Part shown: positions 10,636-26,945 of the stretch, piece by piece
Numbering within the stretch: position 1 is the stretch's first letter
Layout: each line of letters starts with the position of its first letter
Source of the DNA: a virus
Virus record (IMG/VR): IMGVR_UViG_3300042317_000911
Coordinates: 1-31,831 of that record
Reading direction: 5' to 3' (one strand)
DNA: 31,831 bases
Program-made: the position numbers and the translations under genes
Notes under the pieces: generated by a model
The model's database searches: none
What the model was told of the DNA's origin: nothing
What the model saw: only the letters and a program-made list of their open reading frames with translations

Positions 10636-10652
10636 AAAAATATTCTCAAGAG

Positions 10653-10680
10653 TTGACAAGCCGCTAGTCGATGATATAAT
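10653..10680 (+). promoter_or_regulatory. Sigma70-type promoter of tRNA-Ile
   Basis: TTGACA at 10653-10658, 16-base spacer beginning AGCCGCTAG, perfect TATAAT at 10675-10680. It is the only promoter seen before the tRNA-Ile gene and may also supply the tmRNA region downstream. Confidence 0.85.
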
Positions 10681-10713
10681 GGTGGCAGGACGGTGATTGA
10701 TCTTTAACAATAC

Positions 10714-11570: not shown

Positions 11571-11922
11571 GGGGGCGAAAGGTATCGACAGGTAAATAGA
11601 GATATGGATGGCATCGACTGGTTGAATAACAGGCCAGTATAAAAGTTATTCAAAAAATGTTAATTGGCGAAGTAAATCTCGCTCTCGCTGCCTAATTAAT
11701 TAGGTACGAGTGGGGCTATATGGGCCTTATTACCCAATCATATTGACTCAGATAATTCTGATAAGGAAGTCTAACCCGAAAACATAGGCAATGATCGTAA
11801 TCGATCTGATGAAGATAATTCTTCTAGGTTTGTCTAATGTCCAAATTACAATAGACTAACGATGTAGATGTTTATATTGAAATTACTCTGGACGCGATTT
11901 TCAAAGATCGCCGCCTCCACCA
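11571..11922 (+). ncRNA. ssrA: tmRNA (one-piece SsrA RNA), tag ending GEVNLALAA
   Basis: tmRNA rescues ribosomes stalled on broken mRNA and adds a degradation tag. Evidence: a 7-bp acceptor stem GGGGGCG (11571-11577) with CGCCTCC (11912-11918), discriminator A and encoded CCA (11920-11922); a tmRNA-like GGTATCGACAGG D-loop region (11581-11592); a T-arm with TTTCAAAG loop (stem GCGAT/ATCGC, 8-base loop); part of helix 2, GCATCG (11611-11616) with CGATGT (11860-11865); and an ORF reading GEVNLALAA-stop (11666-11695) whose stop lies in a CCTAA/TTAGG hairpin, as for helix 5. The tag start upstream of G is uncertain (in-frame codons read M-L-I). The total of 352 nt is normal. The preceding gene's stop abuts its 5' end, so RNase P must cut it out. 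The 3' CCA is encoded, unlike the two tRNAs. Confidence 0.92.
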
Positions 11923-25807: not shown

Positions 25808-26370
25808 TGATTTATTTTATCTCCGATACCCACTTTGGACACAAGAATATTGTGGGTTATTGCAAAAGACCATTTACTGATACTCACGAAATGAATAAGA
25901 CCATTATTGATAATATCAATAGTGTTGTTAAGCCAAAGGATACTCTTTATTTTCTTGGAGATTTTTGTCATAGGGGTGGTGATCCTAAGAAATATAGAAA
26001 ACAAATAAATTGTGAAGATATTCATGTGATTCTTGGCAACCATGACAATGAGGATAAATTTAGTGAAAAAGATTTTTCTTCTATAGCACTAATGAAAGAA
26101 ATAACCTACTGTAATCAAAAGATAATTCTGTTTCACTATCCTATGAGAGCATGGAACAAAAGTTATCGTAAAAGTTGGATGCTTTATGGTCATGTTCACG
26201 GCAGACTTCACAATGAGGATGAATCACTAGGACGCTTTACGCTTGATGTGGGCGTGGATAATAAAAGGGAAGGTGTTGGGTTTGGCACTCCGTATAGTTT
26301 TAAAGAGATTCAGAAACTATTTGGCGACAGAGAGAAAAAATTCAAGGTCGCCCAGTTGACAAGCCGATAA
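25807..26370 (+). CDS. Calcineurin-like metallophosphoesterase (187 aa)
   Basis: All metal motifs are present in order: S-D7-T-H9, G51-D52-F, G77-N78-H79-D80, H110-Y-P and G128-H129-V-H131-G. The size matches single-domain phosphoesterases like those in many phages, which act on nucleotides, nucleic acid ends or phosphoproteins; the substrate is not readable. Overlap TAATG with PspC. The last codons contain the promoter for the next gene. Confidence 0.9.
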   Translation: MIYFISDTHFGHKNIVGYCKRPFTDTHEMNKTIIDNINSVVKPKDTLYFLGDFCHRGGDPKKYRKQINCEDIHVILGNHDNEDKFSEKDFSSIALMKEITYCNQKIILFHYPMRAWNKSYRKSWMLYGHVHGRLHNEDESLGRFTLDVGVDNKREGVGFGTPYSFKEIQKLFGDREKKFKVAQLTSR

Positions 26371-26383
26371 TGGATGTTAGAAT
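26356..26383 (+). promoter_or_regulatory. Sigma70-type promoter
   Basis: TTGACA at 26356-26361, 16-base spacer with AGCCGATAA, TAGAAT at 26378-26383. It drives the gene at 26459 and, most likely, the structured RNA and tRNA-Leu downstream. Confidence 0.8.
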
Positions 26384-26389
26384 GAAGGA

Positions 26390-26429
26390 GTCAAGCGAGA
26401 GTATCAGTCATGCGACTGACTCGCAAGAC
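26390..26429 (+). promoter_or_regulatory. 5' leader hairpin
   Basis: GTC-AA-GCGAG (26390-26399), AGTA bulge, TCAGTC, loop ATGC, GACTGA, CTCGC-AA-GAC (26414-26429): a 14-pair interrupted stem with a symmetric AA/AA internal loop and one four-base bulge. It lies just after the promoter's start region and 29 bases before the ATG at 26459. It may bind a regulator or slow ribosome entry. Confidence 0.55.
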
Positions 26430-26458
26430 AAGACTTGGAAATGATTTGGAGGTTGATT

Positions 26459-26740
26459 ATGGCTGAAGTTACTACGGTTGATAAGCAGAGTCGTGTTCGT
26501 TGCAGTGACGAGCAGTTCCTTGAGGCGGTTTTCTCCAGCAAGACTTATGCTGAGATTGCCGTTAAGACTGGTCAGAAGGTTGCTAGTACGATGGCTCGTT
26601 ATGCTCGTACAAAGTCCGCTCTGACCAAGAAGGGTATTGAACTGCCCGCTATGGAACGTGCGAAGCCAACCAAGACGGTTGACAACGTAGAGGCTATGGC
26701 AGAGGTTGTTCGTCGCCTCAAGGCTCATGCGAACGGTTGA
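26459..26740 (+). CDS. Small basic helical protein, possible DNA-binding (93 aa)
   Basis: GGAGG five bases before ATG 26459 decides this start over the TTG at 26435. The sequence has two or three helices (D-E-Q-F-L-E-A-V-F, T-Y-A-E-I-A-V-K-T-G-Q-K-V-A-S-T-M-A-R-Y) with the A-E-I-A-x-x-T-G turn of a helix-turn-helix, and ends V-V-R-R-L-K-A-H. It may be an early transcription regulator; unproven. Codons are much richer in G/C than its neighbours. Confidence 0.65.
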   Translation: MAEVTTVDKQSRVRCSDEQFLEAVFSSKTYAEIAVKTGQKVASTMARYARTKSALTKKGIELPAMERAKPTKTVDNVEAMAEVVRRLKAHANG

Positions 26741-26751
26741 TTAAAACCAAA

Positions 26752-26833
26752 AGGTGATCGGCTACAACGGTTTAAATGCTTGAGGCACACAAGTTTTCAA
26801 CCTCAAATCATTGATTGTTGTAGTCGGTCACTT
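26752..26833 (+). ncRNA. Long structured hairpin RNA before tRNA-Leu
   Basis: A perfect 17-pair stem (26752-26768 with 26817-26833, three G-U pairs) encloses a further helix (AATG and TTGAGG pairing with CCTCAA and CATT, one base bulged) and a terminal loop of about 15 bases around 26786-26800. It begins 11 bases after the stop of the 93-residue gene and ends four bases before tRNA-Leu. Not a ribozyme or riboswitch I recognise. It might be a processing signal, an RNA decay barrier, a terminator-like pause, or an independent small RNA. Confidence 0.7.
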
Positions 26834-26837
26834 ATAT

Positions 26838-26912
26838 GGGAGCGTAGTCCAATTGGCAGCAGACAAAGGACTTAAAATCCTTCCAGTGTGGGTTCGACTC
26901 CCACCGCTCCTA
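26838..26912 (+). tRNA. tRNA-Leu (anticodon UAA), short variable arm
   Basis: A 75-nt cloverleaf: acceptor GGGAGCG/CGCTCCT, D-stem GTC/GAC, anticodon stem AAGGA/TCCTT with loop CTTAAAA (anticodon TAA), 5-base variable loop, T-arm GTGGG-TTCGACT-CCCAC, discriminator A, no encoded CCA. It reads UUA, frequent in these AT-rich genes. Bacterial tRNA-Leu normally has a long variable arm, so this short form is atypical; an alternative identity is unlikely, as the anticodon and discriminator fit Leu. Confidence 0.85.
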
Positions 26913-26945
26913 TTTGTAGAATGATAATTATCGAAAGGAAAACCA

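Follow-up and report, generated by a model that had tools for sequence, protein, structure and literature searches.

The stretch of DNA analysed here, referred to below as the window, is a 31.8-kb fragment record (31,831 nucleotides) of a virus with an rIIA-like gene. On its + strand, the gene of a 93-aa helix-turn-helix-like protein (26459-26740), a 3'UTR hairpin (26752-26833) and a tRNA-Leu(UAA) gene without intron (26837-26913 according to ARAGORN, 26838-26912 according to Rfam) follow each other. The hairpin begins 11 nt past the stop of the upstream ORF at 26740 and ends 3-4 nt before the tRNA, in agreement with the initial annotation, which had placed it between a coding gene and a tRNA. 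The segment folds as a single hairpin of -36 kcal/mol, compared to -15.3 kcal/mol (sd 3.05) for shuffled sequences, none of which reached its energy (0/200, z -6.8); the suspicion that its strength exceeds chance was thus justified. The outer stem had been described as 17 pairs with three G-U pairs, and these counts are correct for the first 17 pairs, but the stem is actually continuous over 21 pairs (26752-26772/26813-26833), six of which are G-U. It is followed by a second helix (AAUG/CAUU, 26775-26778/26809-26812), an apical helix (UUGAGG/CCUCAA, 26780-26785/26801-26806) and a loop of 15 nt (26786-26800). The strand GAGG (26782-26785) resembles a Shine-Dalgarno (SD) sequence and shows little or no variation in alignment A1; it closes the apical helix, where it masks the CCUC of the segment complementary to the ribosome-binding site (RBS) described below. 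No T-run follows the hairpin in the window, where UUAUAUGGG comes next, and the site is absent from the list of the terminator scan. In Rfam 15, searched at both thresholds, no family reached its gathering score on the hairpin, the top chance match being a microRNA model with 22 of the 68 bits needed, which is in line with the earlier statement that it matches no known tRNA, riboswitch or ribozyme. The hairpin is a conserved RNA family that is absent from Rfam. Across the window, Rfam matched only tRNAs and a phage-encoded tmRNA (11571-11922, + strand, RF00023, 84.5 bits). A tmRNA is also carried by the relatives L079 and L080, for which ARAGORN predicted the tags GETQLALAA and GNTQLALAA; the call in L080 comprises 436 nt.

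Upstream of the 93-aa gene lies a sigma-70-type promoter (TTGACA-16-TAGAAT, 26356-26383, + strand) with a TG before the -10 element and 11 of 12 matches, and the same promoter was present at about -113 from the ATG in all 28 relatives that were printed. A near-identical consensus sigma-70 promoter is found at 10651-10681, before tRNA-Ile(UAU), with 84% identity over 31 nt to 26354-26384 (+ strand). The 5'UTR contains a small hairpin of its own (UCAGUC-AUGC-GACUGA, 26404-26419, + strand), extended in the window by GCGAG (26395-26399) and CUCGC (26420-26424), which is kept in 41 relatives with the core RUCAGUC-GCGU-GACUGA and double changes at all six pairs. The ribosome-binding region, which is the putative antisense target, follows at 26440-26461 (+ strand) and reads AAUGAUUU-G-GAGGUUGA-UUAUG, with the SD sequence at 26448-26452 and the ATG at 26459-26461. 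The 93-aa protein is 76-100% identical in the relatives. Its AlphaFold model, of moderate confidence (mean pLDDT 76), contains helices at residues 17-26, 30-37, 41-57 and 74-91; a fold search gave only weak winged-helix/helix-turn-helix likenesses with E-values above 0.1, and there was a weak match to Sigma70_r4_2. The GC3 of the gene is 0.49 and lies above the 0.13-0.40 of the other measured ORFs, which points to high expression or a different codon selection. The protein is probably abundant, and the unusual codon usage together with the predicted helix-turn-helix-like fold would fit an abundant regulator that needs a ceiling.

Scanning IMG/VR with the 93-aa protein yielded 183 stretches, and the alignment query yielded 246. 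Close inspection covered about 80 records, and with two more scans the collection grew to 102 distinct combinations of gene start and hairpin. The order of 93-aa gene, hairpin (70-90 nt) and tRNA-Leu(UAA) is kept almost without exception, the hairpin starting 10-30 nt past the stop codon, with a tRNA leader that measures 2-6 nt in almost all relatives. Environmental metagenomes contain hundreds of uncultivated phages with this arrangement. Neither second copies nor a free-living version of the hairpin came to light: a motif scan of IMG/VR that did not depend on the protein gave chance matches and further true hairpins, as judged by a covariance model, all of them beside the same 93-aa gene, searches with the covariance model likewise gave only protein-adjacent copies, and the 15 records searched over their whole length contained no second strong copy. 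Four records of a divergent group, group 2, were not scored by the covariance model, yet they hold a recognisable, longer variant of the hairpin. The phage collection contained no match of a cultured phage to the 93-aa protein, and the only match among bacterial genomes was a contig in a Chitinophagia metagenome-assembled genome, which is probably a phage contig. A cyanophage origin was dropped, as none of nine long records carried a Photo_RC gene; a search with T4 Gp23 gave no match but is uninformative, its control having matched nowhere either.

Three G-U pairs had originally been read as a sign of selection on RNA rather than DNA, and this reading gained much weight from the homologous stems. 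Among 32 distinct sequences, G-U pairs outnumbered A-C mismatches by 147 to 13, and the substitution pattern therefore indicates that the hairpin is selected as RNA on the + strand. A DNA element, such as an attC-like or operator hairpin, predicts no such preference and was rejected. The covariation analysis over homologous phages that had been proposed at the outset found abundant compensatory changes, with double changes at 14 of the 21 outer-stem pairs. Stem positions were paired in 93.2% of cells in the true alignment versus 27-52% when the strands were slid, and the covariation score of the stem was 0.427 versus 0.235 for shuffled and at most 0.135 for slid versions. With the exception of the most divergent copies, the covariance model scored 50-92 bits on the + strand, compared to at most 29 bits on the - strand.

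The hairpin had also been described as fused to the tRNA, which did not hold up: it follows one protein gene everywhere, even where another gene splits off the tRNA. Three lineages (L069/L071, L101/L250/L264 and L281) have an oppositely oriented HNH endonuclease gene between the hairpin and the tRNA-Leu (- strand; L250:3386-3829, L281:3388-3819, L069:2273-2704), and in all of them the hairpin stays beside the gene of the 93-aa protein. In these relatives, and only in these, the hairpin is followed by a U-run of 4-7; the tRNA there comes with a promoter-like sequence of its own, TTGACA-17-TAGAAT. L017 and L018 carry the same hairpin before different tRNA-Leu genes, the downstream tRNA switching its type and gaining or losing a group I intron while the hairpin is unchanged. 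The hairpin belongs to the mRNA and not to the tRNA. The simplest reading of the operon is that gene, hairpin and tRNA would be co-transcribed from the promoter at 26356, since the normal arrangement leaves no room for a separate tRNA promoter.

The conserved apical sequence of the hairpin, (C)AUAAUCAACCUC, is complementary to the SD sequence, the spacer and the start codon of its own upstream gene (GAGGUUGAUUAUG, 26449-26461). In the window, the anti-RBS segment (26797-26812, + strand) consists of UCAACCUC (26797-26804), opposite 26449-26456, and AAAUCAUU (26805-26812), opposite 26440-26447, giving a duplex of 16 pairs (8+8) from which G26448 is bulged; the start-proximal pairing is partial in this clade. 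Over the 31.8 kb and both strands, the RBS is the best duplex partner of the apex (-21.0 kcal/mol). The matches reach 13/13 in relatives, and a contiguous complementarity of at least 10 nt (G-U allowed) was found in 80% of the 102 distinct combinations versus 7% with shuffled leaders. Among about 260-1360 windows, the RBS ranked first in 60 of the 102 loci, low ranks falling mostly to group 2; the relatives share descent, and ranks and counts across them are not independent of each other. Spacer and start positions were paired in 85.6% of cases in the true register and in 58% at the next best shift, whereby only these nine positions carry independent weight, the SD and the CCUC each being otherwise constrained. 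In four long records (G005, G006, G008 and G018), the exact 13-mer GAGGTTGATTATG occurs nowhere but at the RBS and, in reverse, in the hairpin.

Some changes on the two sides compensate each other. Two lineages, which share 73% identity between their proteins, combine GAGGUUUAUUAUG with AUAAUAAACCUC, and the spacer positions of the RBS-loop pairing contain 34 G-U versus 4 A-C cells. The RBS-loop covariation score of 34 distinct pairs was reached by one of 500 shuffles; as real double changes are few, we take this covariation as support for the pairing and not as proof. The divergent hairpins of L355, L326 and L331 remain complementary to the same leader, but in a different register (CAACCUCCAA), and in group 2, UAACCAAUC or UAACUAAUN is found with GAUUGGUUA in 16 of 17 rows (UAAC[C/U]AAU[C/N]), upstream of the SD. 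The pairing between apex and leader is poor in L231/L034 and L349. Plain cofolding did not favour the pairing of apex and RBS, but it is uninformative on this point because it cannot represent a loop-linear, i.e. pseudoknotted, contact, and the interaction was instead assessed by duplex energy plus opening cost. After opening of both partners, the net pairing energy was -2 to -11 kcal/mol in 10 of the 11 cases tested, compared to +1.3 kcal/mol in L318 of group 2. The minimum-energy fold of the full transcript leaves the hairpin closed. As another partner for the loop, the end of its own ORF (GGUUGA) was considered and dropped, as GGCUGA variants are uncompensated.

On these grounds we rather favour the reading that the element is a 3'UTR antisense hairpin which would regulate the translation of its own mRNA by pairing, as in icaR. 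Structure, strand, linkage to the gene, complementarity and some compensation can be read from the sequences, whereas translational repression, formation of the 3' end by RNase P, possible cleavage by RNase III and action in cis or in trans are what we infer from them. The promoter at 26356 would drive a transcript of gene, hairpin and tRNA, and a cut by RNase P at the 5' end of the tRNA would leave an RNA, either the mRNA or a shorter 3' piece, whose end lies 2-6 nt past the hairpin, in the window presumably with the leader AUAU (26834-26837, + strand). The very stable hairpin at this end would shield the mRNA from 3' exonucleases. The loop (AUAAUCAA) would nucleate on the start region, the CCUC being freed from its GAGG mask, and the resulting duplex would block initiation by covering the RBS, either of the same molecule (in cis) or of another copy (in trans). 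The duplex might in addition be a site for RNase III. The expected outcome is a negative feedback on the helix-turn-helix protein.

Several other readings of the hairpin deserve to be weighed against this one. It could serve only as a processing element for the mRNA 3' end and the tRNA, with RNase P (or RNase III) cutting beside a stable stem that guards the mRNA and keeps the fold of the tRNA clean, the loop complementarity being incidental. The very stable stem and the short leader kept in nearly all relatives agree with such a role, and where an HNH gene intervenes, the T-run after the hairpin and the tRNA's own promoter-like sequence indicate that formation of the 3' end matters. As a second role it is compatible with antisense pairing; as the sole function we consider it rather unlikely, because it leaves the invariant apex, the 10-13 nt of complementarity to the RBS and the compensated changes unexplained. 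The U-runs of 4-7 in the lineages where the HNH gene replaces the tRNA as next gene could also point to an intrinsic terminator of the 93-aa gene, the tRNA being reached by read-through. There is, however, no T-run in the window or in the usual arrangement, and the 3-4 nt between stem and tRNA offer no space for a separate tRNA promoter, which makes a terminator very improbable. The initial annotation had listed a terminator without T-run, which the terminator scan did not recover, alongside a small RNA, a candidate that stays in line with our interpretation.

The conservation of the loop could alternatively reflect a protein site, the helix-turn-helix protein regulating its own synthesis by binding to the RNA of the apex and perhaps to that of the leader. 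Protein and hairpin are strictly linked, and the protein and the loop are highly conserved while the stem sequence drifts. On the other hand, in L329 and L220 the loop and the RBS have changed together, the loops of group 2 and of the L355 type differ strongly despite a protein identity of about 90% with the remaining members, and no RNA-binding domain was recognised in the 93-aa protein; we regard this possibility as improbable. Since the sequences at the RBS and in the hairpin are inverted copies and the protein looks DNA-binding in its predicted fold, they might also be two operator sites between which the protein loops 350 bp of DNA. This we consider highly improbable, given the excess of G-U over A-C in both the stem and the RBS-loop spacer and a covarying stem of 21 bp for which a DNA operator has no need.

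For the favoured antisense reading, there are several known systems for comparison. Pairing of a 3'UTR with the RBS of the same mRNA is known as a form of autoregulation in a few bacterial mRNAs; to our knowledge, as far as a limited search of the open-access literature goes, no such conserved family is known in phages. The classical antisense hairpins RNA I of ColE1 and CopA of R1 act through kissing loops and are transcribed from the strand opposite their target. The phage element resembles them as a stem-loop whose loop would nucleate pairing with a leader, but it lies downstream on the same strand, and its complementarity extends over only about 8-17 nt. The closest experimental precedent is icaR of Staphylococcus aureus, followed by OppZ and CarZ. 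The icaR mRNA, which encodes a DNA-binding repressor, has a long 3'UTR with a 7-nt motif (UCCCCUG) that binds its own SD; this pairing stops 30S loading and makes a substrate for RNase III (PMC3868564). In both cases a 3'UTR segment is complementary, in cis or in trans, to the SD region of its own mRNA, and the helix-turn-helix-like fold predicted for the phage protein resembles the icaR product in pointing to a DNA-binding regulator. The phage segment differs in covering as many as 13 nt, the start codon among them, in being carried at the tip of a compact, covarying hairpin that lies about 15 nt past the stop and abuts a tRNA, and in belonging to a phage and not to a bacterium. OppZ and CarZ of Vibrio cholerae are autoregulatory sRNAs derived from 3'UTRs and released by RNase E (PMC7398697). 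There, too, the 3' end of an operon yields an RNA that pairs with its own transcript and inhibits translation in a negative feedback, as proposed for the phage; unlike these separate sRNAs, however, the phage RNA would owe its 3' end to RNase P cleavage at the tRNA, without a U-run terminator.

More speculatively, anti-RBS hairpins whose 3' end is generated by RNase P at the adjacent tRNA might act in trans and form a class of phage regulatory RNAs. Because the RBS of the 93-aa gene hardly varies among many relatives, the RNA of a resident phage could then silence the same gene in a co-infecting relative, an RNA-based superinfection control that we regard as a rather long shot. The stem covariation, the complementarity of RBS and loop with its compensated changes and the fixed order of mRNA, hairpin and tRNA in many phages were all obtained from sequence alone, and they suggest that phage tRNA genes may serve to form the 3' end of the mRNA preceding them. 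The tRNA-Leu(UAA) gene itself carries a group I intron in the anticodon loop in 40 distinct relatives (for example L003, L018, L030 and L065, the latter at L065:5416-5604, + strand) and is intronless in 52, including the window; close phage relatives with an identical hairpin differ in intron and tRNA type.
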